Assembly: GCA_021739645.1 (NCBI GenBank)
Contig: JAIPBL010000017.1
Span: 1-64,000 of the forward strand
Direction: 5' to 3'
Source: Saprospiraceae bacterium
GTDB lineage: Bacteria > Bacteroidota > Bacteroidia > Chitinophagales > Saprospiraceae
Length of the DNA: 64,000 nt
Shown: positions 2,577-11,097 of the stretch, one piece after another
How positions within the stretch are numbered: the first letter of the stretch is position 1
Layout: each line of letters begins with the position of its first letter
Position numbers and translations under genes: made by a program
The notes under the pieces: generated by a model
Seen by the model: only the letters and a program-made list of their open reading frames with translations
Databases searched by the model: none
What the model was told of the DNA's origin: nothing

Positions 2577-4397
2577 ATGAACAACAAGACTCGGCTGATA
2601 CTACTTGCCGCCACTTCCATCGCCACCCTCGCCGTTGGGTACAACATGTACAGCCTCTGGCAGGAGGAAACCCTTTGGGGGCATCGCCCACTCTTCTTTT
2701 TCGTACTGGCTTGGGCGAGCATCGTACTGCTGTTTTGGAAACGTTACACCCGCCACCCAAAGGGCCTGCGCTGGCTTGGCCTTAGTACCTTGAGTGGTGT
2801 ACTGCTGGCAGTCAGTTTTCCGCCATTCCCGACTACCATTTTGCTCTTCATTGCTTGGGTTCCACTGCTCATCGTTGAGTACGAAATCGCCAAAGAGCGG
2901 GCCGTGGAAAACCGTCAACCGTCAACCGTTAATCGTCAACCAAGACTCCTCCCATACGTTTACCACAGCTTCGTCCTTTGGAACATCCTAGTCACTTGGT
3001 GGGTCGGCAACACGGCTTTCATCGCTGGCATCGTGGCCATTTGGCTGAACTCTTGGTTCATGTTCGTGCCGTTCATCTTTTTTCATTGGACCAAAAAGTA
3101 CCTGCCCAAGACGGGCTATTTGTCCTTTGTCGTCTTTTGGATTTCGTTCGAATTCTTGCACCTGAACTGGGAAATTTCCTGGTCGTGGCTCACGCTGGGC
3201 AACGCCTTTGCGGAGTTTCCCCAAGCCGTGCAGTGGTACGAGTACACCGGCGTTTTTGGCGGGACGCTCTGGGTGTTGGCTGCCAACGTACTGACTTTTA
3301 AGCTGCTCAAAAAATGCGAATTCCGCATTTCTCCCAAACTTGTCTGGACGCAACATCGCTGGCCTCTGCTCCAAATCAAGCTGCTCGTGTTGGTGCCGAT
3401 TGCCATTTCTCTGGTTTGGTATTTCAATCAAAAAGACGTTGGGCGGGACGAGGAAGTGGTGGTGGTACAACCCAATTTTGAGCCGCACTACGAGAAATTT
3501 CGAATACCGAAACAGGAACAATTGAAGACCTTCCTGCGACTTTCCGAAGAAGCTATCACTGAAAAAACCCAATACCTCGTATGGCCGGAAACCAGCTTTG
3601 GTGCTGGGGAAACGGACGGGTTTGATTCTAACCCCACCATTCGATACGTCAATACTTTTTTGGAAAAATACCCCAAAGTAAAATTGGTGGTTGGTGTGGA
3701 CGCTTACAAGATTTTCAAGGACGGCGAGCAGCACACCAACCATACCCGTCGGGAAGAACGGGGCAACGAGGTCTTTTTCTGGGAAGCTTACAACGCCGCC
3801 ATCCAACTACAGGCCGGGGCAGACAGCATCCCGTTCTACATCAAATCCAAGCTTGTGCCGGGTGCCGAGATTCTGCCCTACCACAAATATTTGTTTTTCC
3901 TGAAACCCATCGTTGATAAACTGGATGGTTCCGTGGAGGGCCTCGGCAATCAACCAAACCGGGAAGCTTTTCCCAGCGAAAGCGGCAAGGTGGCTCCCTC
4001 TATTTGTTACGAAAGCGTCTTTGGCGACTACAACTGCGGTTATGTTCGAGCGGGAGCTGAAGCTACTTTCATCATGACCAACGACGGCTGGTGGGACAAT
4101 ACCGCTGGCCACAAACAGCACCTCGCCTTCGCACGTCTTCGGGCCATCGAGACCCGCCGAAGCATTGCCCGCTCCGCAAACACAGGCACTTCCTGCTTCA
4201 TTAACCAGCGGGGCGATGTGCAGCAGCCGACCGACTACGGCGTGGAAGCTGCCATTCTGCAGAACATCAAGTTCAACCGGGGTATTACTTTTTATGTCAA
4301 ATGGGGGGATATGATTGCGAGATTTGCGGTCTTGGTGACGGGGCTGCTGCTGTTGAACCTGTTGGTGCAAAAGCTGAAGCGACGGATGGCCAAGTAA
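2577..4397 (+). CDS. lnt: Apolipoprotein N-acyltransferase
   Basis: Adds the third acyl chain to the N-terminal cysteine of lipoproteins on the periplasmic face of the inner membrane. The N-terminal ~280 residues hold several hydrophobic helices. The nitrilase-like domain follows, with the expected Glu-Lys-Cys triad: E338 (VWPETSFG), K425 (KLVPGAE) and C477 (ICYESVFGD). The accessory Glu after each motif is also present (E431, E479). At 606 residues it is longer than the E. coli protein (about 510). Part of the excess is a repeat-derived linker, ENRQPSTVNRQPR, at 111-123, encoded by near-tandem CGTCAAC units. The gene follows metG by 30 bases. Its TAA stop is the first part of a palindromic repeat. 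Confidence 0.95.
   Translation: MNNKTRLILLAATSIATLAVGYNMYSLWQEETLWGHRPLFFFVLAWASIVLLFWKRYTRHPKGLRWLGLSTLSGVLLAVSFPPFPTTILLFIAWVPLLIVEYEIAKERAVENRQPSTVNRQPRLLPYVYHSFVLWNILVTWWVGNTAFIAGIVAIWLNSWFMFVPFIFFHWTKKYLPKTGYLSFVVFWISFEFLHLNWEISWSWLTLGNAFAEFPQAVQWYEYTGVFGGTLWVLAANVLTFKLLKKCEFRISPKLVWTQHRWPLLQIKLLVLVPIAISLVWYFNQKDVGRDEEVVVVQPNFEPHYEKFRIPKQEQLKTFLRLSEEAITEKTQYLVWPETSFGAGETDGFDSNPTIRYVNTFLEKYPKVKLVVGVDAYKIFKDGEQHTNHTRREERGNEVFFWEAYNAAIQLQAGADSIPFYIKSKLVPGAEILPYHKYLFFLKPIVDKLDGSVEGLGNQPNREAFPSESGKVAPSICYESVFGDYNCGYVRAGAEATFIMTNDGWWDNTAGHKQHLAFARLRAIETRRSIARSANTGTSCFINQRGDVQQPTDYGVEAAILQNIKFNRGITFYVKWGDMIARFAVLVTGLLLLNLLVQKLKRRMAK
2911..2942 (+). repeat. Short tandem CGTCAACC units inside lnt
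   Basis: Four near-repeats of a CGTCAACC unit (one diverged to GTTAATCG) encode the hydrophilic linker in a loop between membrane helices of Lnt. The repeats are in frame, so the gene stays open. Confidence 0.5.
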
Positions 4398-4474
4398 CAC
4401 GGTCTGCCAGACCGTGCTTCCGCACCTCACAAGCAAAGGCCGCTTGATTGGCAAACGGGAAAGCACGGACTGAA
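4394..4474 (+). repeat. REPIN-like doublet 1, right arm truncated
   Basis: The left arm begins GTAACACGG and contains the palindrome CACGGTCTGCCAGACCGTG. A spacer of about 34 bases follows, then a truncated right arm (GGGAAAGCACGGACTG then AAAA). The left arm overlaps the lnt stop codon, TAA at 4395-4397. The spacer resembles that of the next doublet, with CTCACAAGCAA shared, so the two are copies of one unit. Confidence 0.8.
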
Positions 4475-4476
4475 AA

Positions 4477-4568
4477 GTAACACGGTCTGCCAGACCGTGC
4501 TTCCACTCCTCACAAGCAACGACAGCTTTATTGGCATCGGGAAAGCACGGACTGGCAGTCCGTGTTAC
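4477..4568 (+). repeat. REPIN-like doublet 2, complete
   Basis: The left arm GTAACACGG(T)CTG... spans 4477-4504 and the inverted right arm spans 4539-4568. Each arm is itself a hairpin. The left stem uses CGGTCT/AGACCG and the right uses CGGACT/AGTCCG, which is a compensated base change. Read on the minus strand, the right arm supplies the TAA stop of the molybdopterin oxidoreductase gene (4565-4567). Confidence 0.85.
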
Positions 4569-7423
4569 AGGTAGTACGTTTCCTCCGCCGGTTTCAGCGC
4601 CCGCTTCATCCAAAGTGGACGGCGAAGGCCATCCGGCCCCGGTGCTGGCCTCGCCAATTTGAGCCAACGGCGATACACTTCCATTGACTTATTGGTGTCC
4701 ACGAAAATATCGCCGTACTGGTCGCCGGGCTGTATGTTCTCGATGCGCACCTTTTGGTGCCAGCAGTGCATCCCCGAAATTGGGTCGGGATGGACTGGGA
4801 AAGTGATGTTCTGGTGAACCCCTCCATCGCTCCAAAAGATACGGGAGGAGTCCTTGTCACCCGACTTGAACGGGGAGATACCCGCCAATTGCTTCATCTT
4901 CCAGCCGCCCTTGCCGTTGTCTTCGATGCTGACGGTGGCGGTCGCCCAACGGTTACCATTTGGGTCGTTCGGCCTGCGCCAGCGGCCAAGGTGGTGCGAG
5001 CAGGCAACGATGCCGGGCTTCATGCCCTCGGTCACCCAAACCTTGTCCACAAAATAGCCGATTTCAGTGTTGATACGGAGCAGGTCGCCCGTTTTTACCC
5101 CAAACTTGGCAGCATCAGATGGGTGCATCCAGAGCGGGTTGCGGTTGGCAATTTCATAAAGCCATTTCGCATTGCCGCTGCGAGAGTGGATGAGCGTCGG
5201 AAGACGGAAAGTCGGCACGAGCGGGAAATCGCCTTTGGAGCGGTCCATTTCGTCCTCATGGATATGGCTTTTGATGTACTGCGGAATGCTGTACTCCGGC
5301 CATTTCCAGTCCACCATCGTTTGGCTGAAAAATTCGTTTTTACCGCTCGGTGTCGGGAAGCCTTCGACAGGTTTGCCTTCGTGCATCACGCCCACCGTTT
5401 TTCCTTTTTTCAAAACACGGCCATCAGCGGCGACTTCCGTCCCATCCAATTCCTTCGTGTTGAGTGGCCGCTTGTTTACTTCGTAAACACTTTCTTCCAC
5501 CACGTAAGCGCCGTATTTCCGCATGTAATCGAGTGCTGACAAGCCCTCCTTGGCAGCCGTTTCGGGCAGGCCCTTTGTTTCTTCGAAAATATAGCGGTAA
5601 TATTCGTCCACCGTGATGCACTCGCCGGGGCGGTACGGCGACTCGAAATGCTTGCGGATACCGAGCGACCCATCGGGGTCAACCCGCCACGAAAGCTGAA
5701 TCCAGAATTCGTCTTCTTCCCAGACTTCGCCGGGGTTTACTTCGTAAGTAAACTGGAAATCTTTCCCGTCCCGTCGGGCTTTTTCCCGTAAAACAGGTTG
5801 CCGGAAGGCAATCCAAATGCCGCTGTGCGTCTCGTAACTGTTGAGGTCGTGGCGCTCGCTGGCAAGGCCCATCGGCAGCACGTAGTCAGCGAAATAGGCA
5901 GTTTCACTCCAAACCGGCGTGAGGGCGGCATGGAGGCCAAAGCATTTTTCGTCCTTGAAGGCATCCATCCAAACAAAGCCGTCGGGGTAGGTCCAAACGG
6001 GATTGAAGACCCGACTGAAATACACGTCCATGAAGCCTCGGCCTTCTTTGAGGAAGTGTGGCAACAGGAAGCTCATCTCAAAGTACGCAAGTGGGTATTC
6101 CTTCGGAAAATGGAGTTCGTTCCAGAATTTCTGTGCGGGTGGTGTGTCAAAAAAGTGCGGGTGGAACTTGTTCCAGGTGTTCGGCGAAGTGCCGCCTACC
6201 GTACCCACCGAACCGGTCAGTACATTGATGAAATGCAAGGTGCGGGCCACCGCCCAGCCGCCGAGATTACCGCTGCCAGCACTGCGCCAGTTGTGGGTGG
6301 AAAGCCGGGTGCCTGCCTCGCCGATGATGCGGGCGACTTCGAGCGTCTGGGCGACTTTGATGCCACATTCTTTTTCCGCAAATTCTGGCGTGTACTCGGC
6401 GTACACATTTATTAATGTTTCAATGAACGCCTCGAAGGTCTGCGGCTTGGTTGGATGCTCCGATTTCATGTAGGCATCCCAGTTCGTCCACTGCTCTAGG
6501 TAGGCACGGTTGTACCAGCCATTTTGCAGCAAAATACGGGCGACGGCCAGCAGCCAAGCCGCTTCCGTTCCGGGGAAGATGGGCAGCCATTCATCGGCCA
6601 TGCTGGCAGTGTTGCTCAGTCGTGGGTCAAGCACGATAAGCTTGGCGCCCTTCATCTTCGCCTCCATGATTCGTTGAGCGTGGGGATTGAAGTAATGCCC
6701 CGATTCAAGGTGCGCCGAGATGAGCAAAATGGCCTTGGCGTTTGCGTGGTCTGGAGATGGGCGGTCATGCCCGTACCAGATGGCGTAGCCAAAACGAGCA
6801 CCCGACGAGCAGATATTCGTGTGAGAATTATGACCGTCCACGCCCCAAGCTTTGAGTACCCGGTCCATGTAACCTTCGTGACCTGGCCGCCCAACGTGGT
6901 AAGCAATTTCGTTGTTCCGACCTTCAAGCAGCGCCTTGCGCATCCGTCCGGCAATATCGTCCAGCACAGAGTCCCAAGTGACCCGCTCCCATTGGCCACT
7001 GCCCCGCTCTCCTACCCGCTTCATCGGATAAAGCACCCGGTCTGGGTCGGTGATTTGGTTGATGGTGGCGGGGCCTTTGGCGCAGTTGCGGCCACGGCTG
7101 CCGGGGTGCCATGGATTTCCCTCGAACTTGCGCACCTCGTTCGTTTCCTTATCAATGTATGCCAAGAGGCCACAAGCACTCTCGCAGTTGAAGCAAGTCG
7201 TGGGAACGATTGAGTAGTTCTTCTTCTCCTTTTTAGGCCAAGTTTTGGCTTCGTACTCTGTCCAGTCGTTCCACTGTTCTGGCGGCGGGAACTTGGACAA
7301 GTCGCCCGGCTCGGTGAGACTTCCCACGGATGGAGCGTAATCCTCGTCCTTGTGCAGGTTTGGAATGAGGCCGATGCCTTCGGCCATTTTTTCGATGAAA
7401 CTTGGTTTGTGCTTGTAGCCCAT
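4565..7423 (-). CDS. soeA: Molybdopterin oxidoreductase, SoeA-like sulfite dehydrogenase catalytic subunit
   Basis: Complex iron-sulfur molybdoenzyme of the DMSO reductase superfamily, 952 residues. A 4Fe-4S site near the N-terminus uses C77, C80, C84 and C114. The likely Mo ligand is C205 in NICSSGAR. There is no twin-arginine signal, so the enzyme should face the cytoplasm. That fits SoeA of cytoplasmic sulfite dehydrogenase (about 965 residues) better than periplasmic polysulfide or thiosulfate reductases. It is the last gene of the leftward cluster with the SQR and the Fe-S/membrane subunit fusion, which makes sulfite oxidation to sulfate with electrons to quinone the best guess. Another sulfur oxyanion, or the reductive direction, is possible. 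The stop codon lies inside a palindromic repeat. Family assignment is firm; substrate is inferred from context. Confidence 0.85.
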   Translation of the reverse strand: MGYKHKPSFIEKMAEGIGLIPNLHKDEDYAPSVGSLTEPGDLSKFPPPEQWNDWTEYEAKTWPKKEKKNYSIVPTTCFNCESACGLLAYIDKETNEVRKFEGNPWHPGSRGRNCAKGPATINQITDPDRVLYPMKRVGERGSGQWERVTWDSVLDDIAGRMRKALLEGRNNEIAYHVGRPGHEGYMDRVLKAWGVDGHNSHTNICSSGARFGYAIWYGHDRPSPDHANAKAILLISAHLESGHYFNPHAQRIMEAKMKGAKLIVLDPRLSNTASMADEWLPIFPGTEAAWLLAVARILLQNGWYNRAYLEQWTNWDAYMKSEHPTKPQTFEAFIETLINVYAEYTPEFAEKECGIKVAQTLEVARIIGEAGTRLSTHNWRSAGSGNLGGWAVARTLHFINVLTGSVGTVGGTSPNTWNKFHPHFFDTPPAQKFWNELHFPKEYPLAYFEMSFLLPHFLKEGRGFMDVYFSRVFNPVWTYPDGFVWMDAFKDEKCFGLHAALTPVWSETAYFADYVLPMGLASERHDLNSYETHSGIWIAFRQPVLREKARRDGKDFQFTYEVNPGEVWEEDEFWIQLSWRVDPDGSLGIRKHFESPYRPGECITVDEYYRYIFEETKGLPETAAKEGLSALDYMRKYGAYVVEESVYEVNKRPLNTKELDGTEVAADGRVLKKGKTVGVMHEGKPVEGFPTPSGKNEFFSQTMVDWKWPEYSIPQYIKSHIHEDEMDRSKGDFPLVPTFRLPTLIHSRSGNAKWLYEIANRNPLWMHPSDAAKFGVKTGDLLRINTEIGYFVDKVWVTEGMKPGIVACSHHLGRWRRPNDPNGNRWATATVSIEDNGKGGWKMKQLAGISPFKSGDKDSSRIFWSDGGVHQNITFPVHPDPISGMHCWHQKVRIENIQPGDQYGDIFVDTNKSMEVYRRWLKLARPAPGPDGLRRPLWMKRALKPAEETYYL

Positions 7424-7444
7424 ATTCGTGGTTTTGACTGGTTC

Positions 7445-8074
7445 TCAGCCTAGATTTAATCTTTTAAAACTGCAAAAAACAAACTCCTGCACCTTCTCGC
7501 TTGGCGTCAAGTGCTTGACGGTCAGGCATTTGAGTTTTTCAAAAAACTGTTGAAGGCGTTCCTTCATAGCAGATTCAGAGTATTGCTTAATTGGCAACCC
7601 GCTGCATTTTTCCGGGCCATTTTCAGAGAAAGTACCTAGCACGAGATAGCCTCCCGGAGCAATGGATTGCTGCACGGTTTTGATATAATGCTTGATGTCT
7701 TTTTCTTTGGTAAAAAAATGGAACGCTGCCCTATCGTGCCAGAAATCATATTTTTCTTTTGGCTTGAAAGCAGCCGCGTCACAAACCACCCATTTTACCA
7801 AAGAAGCCTTCTCACCAAGTCGAGCCTTTGCCCGCTCCAAAGCTTTCTCCGAAATATCAAGCACCGTCACGTTTTCAAATCCTTCGGCCAACAGGTGGTC
7901 AACCAGCAGACTGTCGCCACCGCCCACATCAATAATGCGAGCGGATTTGGGTAGCTCGTATTTGTGCAAAAAGTCCAAGGAAATGTCCGGCCTCGCTTGA
8001 TACCAAGAGGCCTCAGTCAGCTGCTTCGTCTGATAGACATTTTCCCAATGGGATTTTCGATTGAAATCTTCCAT
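7445..8074 (-). CDS. Class I SAM-dependent methyltransferase
   Basis: A 209-residue single-domain Rossmann methyltransferase. Motif I is IIDVGGGDS at about residues 44-52, the acidic loop after strand 2 is TVLDISEKALERA, and later strands include YDFWHDRAAFHFF and GGYLVLGTFSENG. The N-terminal KSHWENVYQTKQ...SWYQ pattern is typical of small stand-alone methyltransferases. The substrate is unknown. Its position between SQR and the molybdenum subunit, 21 bases upstream of the latter, suggests a small thiol, sulfide or another sulfur-linked metabolite, but that is inference. There is no signal peptide, so it is cytoplasmic. Confidence 0.85.
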   Translation of the reverse strand: MEDFNRKSHWENVYQTKQLTEASWYQARPDISLDFLHKYELPKSARIIDVGGGDSLLVDHLLAEGFENVTVLDISEKALERAKARLGEKASLVKWVVCDAAAFKPKEKYDFWHDRAAFHFFTKEKDIKHYIKTVQQSIAPGGYLVLGTFSENGPEKCSGLPIKQYSESAMKERLQQFFEKLKCLTVKHLTPSEKVQEFVFCSFKRLNLG

Positions 8075-8092
8075 GTTTCTTCACCAATTTTG

Positions 8093-8116
8093 ACACGGAC
8101 TGGCAGTCCGTATTAC
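8093..8116 (+). repeat. Orphan right-type REP arm at the SQR stop codon
   Basis: A single arm, CACGGACTGGCAGTCCGT followed by ATTAC, with no partner nearby. Read on the minus strand it starts GTAATACGG and provides the TAA stop of the SQR gene (8113-8115). It fills most of the gap between SQR and the methyltransferase. Confidence 0.8.
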
Positions 8117-9303
8117 GCCCGACCACTCAAAATCCGGTTCCAGTACAACCAAGGCAGCACCTTCGTTTTCAGCATCCACATGCTCCAACGTTCCTTGCTC
8201 TGGTCAAATGGAAACGTCTCCATCGGGTTGTTGTCATAATCGAATTCAGCCAGCACTAACTTCCCGAATCCGGTGACCAACGGGCAAGAGCCGTAACCTG
8301 TGTATTTCGCATCGAGTTGGCCGCCATTTTTGACGTGCATCAGGTTTTGAACCAAAACTGGGGCTTGCTTTCTAACGGCTGCACCAGTTTTGGCGTTTGG
8401 CAAACTGGAAGCGTCTCCGCAACTGAAGATGTTCGGGTAGCGATTGTGCTGCGTTGTGAACTTGTCCACATCCACCCAACCAAACTCATTGTCAGGCATC
8501 GCAAGCGGTGAGTTTTTGATAAAATCCGGCGCACTCTGTGGTGGCGTCACGTGGATAAACTCGAAGGTTTCCTCCACTCGATTACCATTTTCATCCTCGA
8601 ACCAAGCCTTTTTGTTTGGGCCGTCCACTTCAACCAAGTTGTGCAAGAAGTGCGTCTGGATTTTATATCGGGCTATCACTTTATTCAGCGTGTCGGCGTA
8701 TTTTTTTACTCCGAAAATGATGCTACCACCAGAGTAGAAATGAATGTTCGATTTTGGCTGAAGGCCGTTTTTGAGAATATAGTCTCCAGCGAGGTACATG
8801 ATTTTTTGCGGAGCACCGCCGCATTTGATTGGAGTGTTGGGGTTGGTGAAAATGGCGTTCCCACCCTTGAAATTGCGGAGCAATTCCCAGGTGTAGGTGG
8901 CATATTCCACGAGATAGTTGGAAGTGACGCCATTTTTTCCAAGGGTTTCTTTCAATCCTTTCACCATGTGCCAATCGAGTTGGATGCCGGGCACTACCAC
9001 CATATAGTCGTAGGTATGCTTGTCGCCGCTTTTGCAGGTAACTTGGTTTTGTTCCGGTTGGAAGGTGGCAACTGCATCTTTAATCCAAGTTGTGCCTTTT
9101 GGAATAAAGTCTTTTTCGTTTTTGATGGTGTCATTTACATCAAAAATTCCAGCACCTACCAGTGTCCAAGCAGGCTGGTAGTAGTGCTTTTCAGAGGGTT
9201 CGACAATACCGATTTTCAGCGAACTGTCCTTGTGGAGCAGTTGCGAAGCGATGGACAGCCCTGCGTTACCGCCACCGATGATAAGAATTTGATGATGTGC
9301 CAT
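8113..9303 (-). CDS. sqr: Sulfide:quinone oxidoreductase, mitochondrial SQOR-like type
   Basis: FAD enzyme that oxidises sulfide and passes electrons to the quinone pool at the inner membrane. From the ATG at 9303 the protein is 396 residues and starts directly with the dinucleotide-binding motif ILIIGGGNAG; the longer track frame uses a GTG that lies at the edge of a repeat. The redox cysteines are C161 (PIKCGGAPQ) and C340 (GSCPLVTG). These motifs, with FPFDQSKERWSM near the C-terminus, match the human SQOR type more closely than the short bacterial type I enzymes. The gene lies between the Fe-S/membrane subunit and the methyltransferase on the same strand. Its stop codon is contributed by a palindromic repeat. 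Confidence 0.93.
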   Translation of the reverse strand: MAHHQILIIGGGNAGLSIASQLLHKDSSLKIGIVEPSEKHYYQPAWTLVGAGIFDVNDTIKNEKDFIPKGTTWIKDAVATFQPEQNQVTCKSGDKHTYDYMVVVPGIQLDWHMVKGLKETLGKNGVTSNYLVEYATYTWELLRNFKGGNAIFTNPNTPIKCGGAPQKIMYLAGDYILKNGLQPKSNIHFYSGGSIIFGVKKYADTLNKVIARYKIQTHFLHNLVEVDGPNKKAWFEDENGNRVEETFEFIHVTPPQSAPDFIKNSPLAMPDNEFGWVDVDKFTTQHNRYPNIFSCGDASSLPNAKTGAAVRKQAPVLVQNLMHVKNGGQLDAKYTGYGSCPLVTGFGKLVLAEFDYDNNPMETFPFDQSKERWSMWMLKTKVLPWLYWNRILSGRA

Positions 9304-9317
9304 GATTGCGTTGTTTT

Positions 9318-9463
9318 GCAACACGGTCTGCCAGACCGTGCGTTTATGCTTCCCAATTTCCAGTTTTTAATTCGCTGTAAAATGTGGAAAAAAAAAGTTG
9401 TTAGCATTTCAAATCCCTCCCCATTTGGGAGGAGTGAAAGCACGGACTGGCAGTCCGTGTTAC
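9318..9463 (+). repeat. REPIN-like doublet 3 with a longer spacer
   Basis: The left arm (GCAACACGG..., 9318-9341) and the inverted right arm (GAAAGCACGGACTGG..., 9436-9463) are about 95 bases apart. The spacer carries a different palindrome, CCTCCCCATTTGGGAGG. The right arm read on the minus strand supplies the stop of the Fe-S/membrane fusion gene (TAA at 9460-9462). The left arm, which faces a gene start, has CAA instead of TAA. Confidence 0.8.
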
Positions 9464-11097
9464 GAAAGCTGTATCTGCTGGGGCGCTTCCACCCAGATTT
9501 TCTCCGTGAAATAGATGCCGATGAGTGCTAGCAAGCCAGCGATTTGAACGCCGTATTCAAAGCCAGACAGCAAGAGAATCAGCGGGACTAAGTTGCCAAA
9601 AATAACCACTCCCCACCAAAACAGGCGGGAGTAGCGGCCTTTGGTTATCATATCGGCGGTCATTTTGGCCTCTTGGGTCATGTGAGCAGTGGTCAGCTCA
9701 ACGAACATAACCAGTAAGTTAACTGCAATACCAAGCCCAATCATCCATTGCAGATAGGTCATCCAACCACTGGAGGGCAGTTCAAAAAATGCCATCACAG
9801 CAAAAATGGCTGCACCTGCCAACAAGCTGTGAATAAGCATGTGCAGGGCAAGCACCGGGCTTTGCCAGAAGTCACGGCCTTTCGCTTGTGCGAAAAGGTA
9901 GGCGGTATAAACCGAGGTAACAATCGCCGAGAGTCCAGCAATTATTAAAAATATAGTGCTCAATACATCCCAAGCGAGCATGGACGACACCAACAACATG
10001 GTCAATGAGCCGCCAAAAATAGAAAGCGCATACCCACCCCGAACGAGCCAGCTTTTCCACTGTGGTCGGAGAATCACCGACAAAAAGCGTTTTGGTTGGT
10101 CAAGGTCTTTAACAAGCAATGCCGTGGTAATTCCAAGAAAAATGAGCGCCAAGATGATGCCGACGTAAAACATGCCAATTTCCTCAAGAAATCCCGTTTT
10201 GACGTTAAGTTTGCCAAGCACAAAAATAGCCAGCAGTGGCACCAGAAATGCCCCCGTTGAAATTGCCTTCGTAAAAACATACCCACTCACTTCCCAGCCC
10301 CAAAGAAGCCCCTTGTTCGGTGCATCGTAAACCCGACGAGCGCCGCCGTTCATCAACACATCCACCGATTTCTGTGGACCTGTGGTTTTCAAATCGCTTG
10401 CTTGGGTGGTATTCCCTTCGGCTAAGGCGGAAATCATATCGCCGCCATCGAAGGCGAGTTTTTCGGTTTGCTTCGCAAAATGGCCAACGCCACGAGTCTG
10501 CGCTCCCCAAAGCGTATTGGAAGGCCGCTCAGTAGCGATTGGGTTCAGTGAAGCTTCGTCCCCATCAATATAAAATAGGTTGGGTTTAGTGCCTTTGGAT
10601 TCCCGGCGTACCGTAACCGTCTCGCGGCCAAGTAGTTGTGAAATTTCAGATTCGGGGTTGTCCATGTCACCAGAGATGATGGCATGTTCTGGACAGATGT
10701 TCACGCAGGCAGGTTCAAGGCCAATGTCCACCCGATGGGCGCAGTAGTTGCACTTAGCAGCCGTGTGTGTGTCGGGGTCGATGTAGAGGGCGTCGTAGGG
10801 ACAAGCCTGCATGCAGGATTTGCATCCGATGCAGCGGTTTTTGTCAAAATCCACGATGCCATCCGGGCGAAAATACAGTGCTTCGACCGGACAAATCTCA
10901 ACACATGGAGCATCGGTGCAGTGGTTGCAGCGCATCACCGAGAACAAGCGGCGGGTATGCGGGAACTCACCCTTTTCCACCTGTTTCACCCAAGTACGAA
11001 AGACGCCAACTGGAACGTCGTGCTCGGATTTACAGGCGGTGGTGCAGGCATGGCAGCCGATGCACTTGCGGTTGTCTATTATAAAGCCGTATTTCAT
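9460..11097 (-). CDS. Fused 4Fe-4S ferredoxin and membrane anchor subunit, SoeB-SoeC-like
   Basis: A 545-residue fusion of the electron-transfer and membrane subunits of a DMSO reductase-family complex. The first ~200 residues are ferredoxin-like with four cysteine clusters, beginning C12, C15, C18, C22 (CIGCHACTTAC). Later groups are CNHC...CVEICP, CIGCKSCMQACP and CNYC...CVNICP. From about residue 270 come roughly eight hydrophobic helices of the DmsC/NrfD anchor kind. It would carry electrons between the molybdopterin subunit and quinone. In the Allochromatium Soe system SoeB and SoeC are separate, so the fusion is notable. The gene is first in the leftward cluster and has a Crp/Fnr-type palindrome about 70 bases upstream. 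Confidence 0.88.
   Translation of the reverse strand: MKYGFIIDNRKCIGCHACTTACKSEHDVPVGVFRTWVKQVEKGEFPHTRRLFSVMRCNHCTDAPCVEICPVEALYFRPDGIVDFDKNRCIGCKSCMQACPYDALYIDPDTHTAAKCNYCAHRVDIGLEPACVNICPEHAIISGDMDNPESEISQLLGRETVTVRRESKGTKPNLFYIDGDEASLNPIATERPSNTLWGAQTRGVGHFAKQTEKLAFDGGDMISALAEGNTTQASDLKTTGPQKSVDVLMNGGARRVYDAPNKGLLWGWEVSGYVFTKAISTGAFLVPLLAIFVLGKLNVKTGFLEEIGMFYVGIILALIFLGITTALLVKDLDQPKRFLSVILRPQWKSWLVRGGYALSIFGGSLTMLLVSSMLAWDVLSTIFLIIAGLSAIVTSVYTAYLFAQAKGRDFWQSPVLALHMLIHSLLAGAAIFAVMAFFELPSSGWMTYLQWMIGLGIAVNLLVMFVELTTAHMTQEAKMTADMITKGRYSRLFWWGVVIFGNLVPLILLLSGFEYGVQIAGLLALIGIYFTEKIWVEAPQQIQLS

Follow-up and report, generated by a model that had tools for sequence, protein, structure and literature searches.

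In many bacteria, REP sequences are found close to the 3' ends of genes, and the available part of one report places the GTAG and CGTC REP superfamilies mostly between convergent or co-directional genes, often <20 bp from 3' ends, with some copies inside genes (PMC3733652). In several systems, RAYT proteins recognise the tag GTAG (PMC8266576). Part of the E. coli REPs are located within 15 nt of a stop codon and were reported to stall ribosomes (PMC12306157). Selection, RNA function and targeting have each been invoked for REP clustering at gene ends, but a clean test has been lacking. Such clustering is already known, and an exact overlap of tag and stop codon is, as far as could be found, apparently undescribed: no account of REPs overlapping stop codons was found in the open-access papers.

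In the window (the whole stretch of 64,000 nucleotides analyzed, from a Saprospiraceae bacterium, hereafter the host), the palindrome CACGGWCTGSCAGWCCGTG occurred in six copies, at 4398, 4481, 4546, 8094 (one mismatch), 9322 and 9441, versus 0.01 matches expected in shuffled sequence. A chance origin of the copies was rejected by these shuffles, by the copies found genome-wide and by tests of stop position. The unit has the layout GTAA + CACGGWCTGSCAGWCCGTG + CTT. The first (4394..4421, plus strand; hairpin of -11.9 kcal/mol) closes lnt (2577..4397, plus strand; apolipoprotein N-acyltransferase-like, a name taken over as given from the sequence-only reading), the stop codon of which is TAA 4395-4397. 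In the gap between lnt and the SoeA-like gene, a second, internal unit (4477..4504, plus strand) and an inverted unit (4541..4568, minus strand) form the REPIN 4477-4568, which folds over 92 nt with -49.9 kcal/mol (z -8.6); TAA 4567-4565 of the inverted unit serves as stop codon for the SoeA-like molybdopterin oxidoreductase gene (4565..7423, minus strand). A single unit reading GTAATACGG... (8089..8116, minus strand) carries in TAA 8115-8113 the stop of the sulfide:quinone reductase-like gene (SQR; 8113..9303, minus strand). Finally, the REPIN 9318-9463 joins a unit at 9436..9463 (minus strand), whose TAA 9462-9460 ends the Fe-S/membrane fusion gene (9460..11097, minus strand), to a far-end unit at 9318..9345 (plus strand), which lies 15 nt upstream of the SQR ATG (9303). 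The sequence-only reading had noted that the tag TAA is the in-frame stop of all four genes, each time preceded by G, and that the copy at 9318, which faces a gene start, differs in having GCAA instead of GTAA; both observations were confirmed. Protein names that have no search behind them were read from the sequence.

The palindrome is a REP/REPIN-type repeat. The host genome contains ~47 elements of this GTAA-tagged family, mostly as inverted pairs; at least 8 of them are inside ORFs, and the family is mostly extragenic. The units are paired in inverted orientation across spacers of tens of nt and at times form arrays, which is the REPIN layout. A covariance search detected the family in several genus mates as well as throughout the host genome, but in none of the other genera of the same order that were searched. 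Five close Saprospiraceae relatives, from a group of uncultured bacteria, also carry it, and when 84,980 species genomes were scanned for the exact motif, matches were restricted to Saprospiraceae/Bacteroidetes MAGs of this group. Each base of GTAA was present in >90% of outward ends overall, and at ends coinciding with stop codons the values were G 97%, T 100%, A 98% and A 95%. The tag GTAG, by which the GTAG REP superfamily is recognised, is here a minority variant. Features typical of REP/REPIN elements were found, including a copy number in the tens, inverted pairs, a conserved tetranucleotide at the 5' foot and, in G003 and G006, a RAYT flanked by the repeats. The best reading is a new GTAA-tagged REPIN family that is filtered, and perhaps also directed, to stop codons. 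A known RNA family was rejected, as the search returned only sub-threshold miRNA noise, and so was an intrinsic transcription terminator, since the hairpin is followed by CTTTC or TTAC and a U-tract is absent. In one element on host contig C18 (L046 4304-4340), CTTGTCCCTTTGGGGC enlarges a hairpin loop; similar strings at L185 and L144 perhaps belong to another repeat family. The genomes compared, mostly fragmented assemblies, are related as ((G003,(G000,G013)),(G006,(G005,G011)),(G008,G012)).

Two relatives contain a REPtron. On G003 C35 (L150 3322-3963) and G006 C1 (L151 about 3801-4442), a RAYT of 213 aa is flanked by the same REPs, and its own stop is a REP tag. It matched the NCBIfam profile REP_Tyr_transpos with E 4e-17 and 62 bits, which is below the curated 80. 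In both genomes the gene is located between SQR (or a methyltransferase behind SQR) and the SoeA-like gene, that is, in the cluster orthologous to the window, and in G010 a 58% homologue is also found between an Fe-S gene and a SoeA-like start. The host cluster has no RAYT; there, one hairpin and a methyltransferase gene come after SQR. The G003/G006 protein has no close counterpart in the host, where the best match had 42% identity and no flanking REPs, and host RAYTs were rejected as partners, as none of seven Y1_Tnp matches is REP-flanked. Neither was such a RAYT found in the REP-rich G005 and G011, which are incomplete MAGs. Given the host cluster without a RAYT, the host copies may be relics or may be served in trans.

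To place the copies relative to genes, we called genes with our own hexamer model in stretches of ~12 kb around the copies and took the background from the same stretches; gene starts and some gene ends thus rest on this predictor. Of the 35 host tags that point outward to a gene 3' end no more than 170 nt away, 27 are the actual in-frame stop codon, and the other eight lie at +3, +4, +10, +78, +100, +107, +113 and +168. Relatives added 15 (G003), 16 (G006) and 7 (G011) ends at offset 0, 65 over the four genomes, although these sites are partly shared and not fully independent. Native GTAA in the same stretches was found at 39 stops, at 66 same-strand positions within 100 nt downstream and at 560 positions in all intergenic DNA. 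In the host alone, the excess at stops had p = 6e-7 against native same-strand GTAA positions and odds of 24.6 against all intergenic GTAA; p values pooled over genomes overstate the effect because some sites are common to several genomes. Thus, the genome-wide search, in which a lack of enrichment would have spoken against the sequence-only reading, did show enrichment of in-frame TAA stops, and its proposal of a mobile-type repeat standing in a non-random relation to stop codons, with the tag TAA as the stop, extends to the whole genome. Slippage between TAA repeats was rejected, since it would leave the native preceding base in place, yet G was present in 97%; only 30% of other TAA stops have G before them. 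This G comes either from the repeat or from the chosen site. Separately, at two host sites (L053 6768-6793 on C48 and L038 6292-6317 on C70) a single hairpin bounds two convergent genes, with a stop at each foot, and in REP-less relatives other short tandem repeats often start directly after the stop (L181, L182, L173, L081).

The sequence-only reading held that the repeat supplies the stop codon. This is correct in that the TAA of the tag is the stop, but the repeat does not impose a new gene end at most sites, where REP-less orthologues end identically. Orthologous protein ends in relatives were read for 27 sites, and most proteins had the same last residue with or without the repeat, e.g., MoaD with its Gly-Gly (...SGG), lipoyl synthase (...AERHL), M23 peptidase (...VDFK) and the Fe-S gene (QIQLS). 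The stop thus has the same position in orthologues free of the repeat, and the tag lies over a native stop codon. A minority of about seven proteins was shorter than in relatives, by a few codons at C34, C19, C70, C137 and window position 4543, and probably also at C133 and C110, with a larger shortening at C110. In REP-less relatives, the stop is TAA, TGA or TAG with any base before it. At repeat-bearing sites the foot stop may likewise be TAA, TAG or TGA and varies between species at one site, while ends facing gene starts drift to GCAA or GTTG, so that a constraint from reading evidently keeps the foot a stop codon. Occupancy is patchy: the lipoyl synthase stop carries the repeat in G000, G003, G006 and G008 and none in G013, G005, G011 and G012. 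Such a pattern on the tree implies that copies were gained or lost more than once at one stop. Far ends facing gene starts (L051, L170, L171, L083, L085, L084) often read TTACNTTTG; this string resembles the Bacteroidota -7 promoter box, TAnnTTTG.

Copies inside ORFs are subject to a frame filter. Among sense copies, 0 of 20 were in the stop phase and all were in the two open phases, and those within genes are found in hypervariable loops, which in relatives contain other repeats. The sequence-only reading had suggested that insertions are retained if they close the frame immediately. As a filter this is supported, but on its own it does not explain the scarcity of copies just downstream of stops, where no protein would be affected. 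Several copies are translated. In four species, REPINs within an NRPS/PKS-like megasynthase (host C65, L059 2798-14677; L212, L219, L238) share one KS linker (TEAVTRTASPC...CYIGSVKTNIGHL); A-domain-like stretches hold REPINs too. A GltD-like protein likewise has a translated REPIN in one of its loops (L213 2940-3025 in G003, L233 3034-3119 in G011), and this loop has other repetitive sequence in G005 and G006. In G008 C78 (L265), a different palindrome, GTTGCAAGTCACAGACTTGCAAC, is found in a protein loop that holds the present REP in relatives, the same loop as at host C50:2985.

We consider it fairly probable that a GTAA-tagged REP/REPIN family spread by a RAYT persists mainly at stop codons, with the native 3' DNA often replaced. 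The repeat would have been moved by a RAYT (HUH/Y1 transposase), present in the REPtron of sister species; its absence from the host, and from G005 and G011, speaks against this reading. A copy would persist only where the protein stays intact: in loops, between genes and, most of all, right after an ORF. There, the TAA of the tag would fall on the native stop codon or take over from it, and the tag would make the unit self-terminating in one of three frames. Native 3' untranslated DNA would then often be replaced or eroded, with the REPIN filling most of the gap from the stop to the next gene, and the hairpin may serve as the new 3' end. The filter alone leaves the excess of stops over other GTAA sites unexplained, and it is possible that GTAA or the stop codon itself is a preferred landing or annealing point. 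A further-reaching version, in which a mobile repeat whose tag doubles as a stop is directed to native stops and replaces the native 3' end, so that the stop codon becomes an almost cost-free safe harbour, can be offered only tentatively.

An alternative that we regard as rather unlikely is that, as in IS200/IS605, the element inserts just 3' of a native GTAA. The stop would then be wholly native, G-TAA gene ends would be the safest sites, and only the opposite TTAC end would belong to the element. The Fe-S gene is in favor of this model, as CTAAC-CTGAC in G003 corresponds to GTAAC[...CCGTGTTAC]CTGAC in G011, which fits a clean insertion behind TAAC. Also consistent are the 65 ends at stop codons versus 12 at +3..+12 nt in the four genomes pooled, a ratio near that of native GTAA (39 at stops, with about 11 expected over the following 12 nt), and the intragenic sites in KS and A domains, which end on TAC codons that are native in such domains. 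However, in G003 C23 a 27-nt REP with GTAA stands in place of 27 nt of native coding sequence that lack GTAA; moreover, positions +13..+100 are used far too rarely, and the use of stops exceeds that of other intergenic GTAA 25-fold. Repeat-bearing sites often lack the native 3' sequence, but only 13 of 18 comparisons had a native residue shorter than at every empty site, a point against the preferred reading. An insertion placed one base ahead of the stop, which would push the native stop behind the element, was rejected: a displaced native stop behind the far end was found in 5 of 49 cases, about chance. All these comparisons are between species.

Positive selection for a hairpin right behind the stop, which might act in mRNA 3' protection, termination or tuning of translation, is in our view unlikely. 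The hairpins are stable by folding, and in the window REPs take up the whole lnt/SoeA gap between the two stop codons, replacing a GC-rich hairpin common to the sister species G013 and G008, which have 66-75 nt there; the reported stalling of ribosomes by E. coli REPs close to stops (PMC12306157) would also agree. On the other hand, sister G013 has lost or degraded most copies, and the missing U-tract argues against termination. Neutral landing followed by purifying selection only, with GTAA copies landing anywhere and surviving where harmless, is improbable and was already disfavoured: it accommodates the empty stop phase and the hypervariable loops inside ORFs, yet the few nt downstream of a stop should be equally harmless, and with 27 of 35 nearby ends exactly at the stop a uniform-position null gives p about 1e-23.

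That the tag TAA is the exact stop at dozens of genes suggests that parasitic repeats sit where harm to proteins is small, and shows a mobile element joining the reading frame of a gene with the protein unchanged. Because the tag is the stop codon, each copy can be placed to the exact base and scored for frame, and orthologues that carry a copy can be set against those that lack one, so that this system helps to separate targeting from filtering. In 250 kb of E. coli, TAG was the stop at 0 of 55 gene-facing GTAG ends, a weak control because TAG stops are rare there (8 of about 213). Rickettsia palindromic elements (RPE) are palindromes in frame inside ORFs (PMC3733652, available part), like the NRPS/PKS and GltD-like copies described here, but their niche is the ORF interior, whereas the main niche here is the stop codon. 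The GTAG/CGTC superfamilies share the location at gene ends, and the available part of the same paper mentions neither a GTAA family nor a stop overlap. The closest likeness is to REP/BIME/REPIN elements with a RAYT (REPtron), with which the family shares a 20-30 nt palindrome, a 5' tetranucleotide tag, inverted pairs, arrays, many copies and a RAYT flanked by repeats (here in G003 and G006); the tag there is GTAG/GTGG, whereas here it is GTAA, the TAA of which is an in-frame stop at most gene-end copies.
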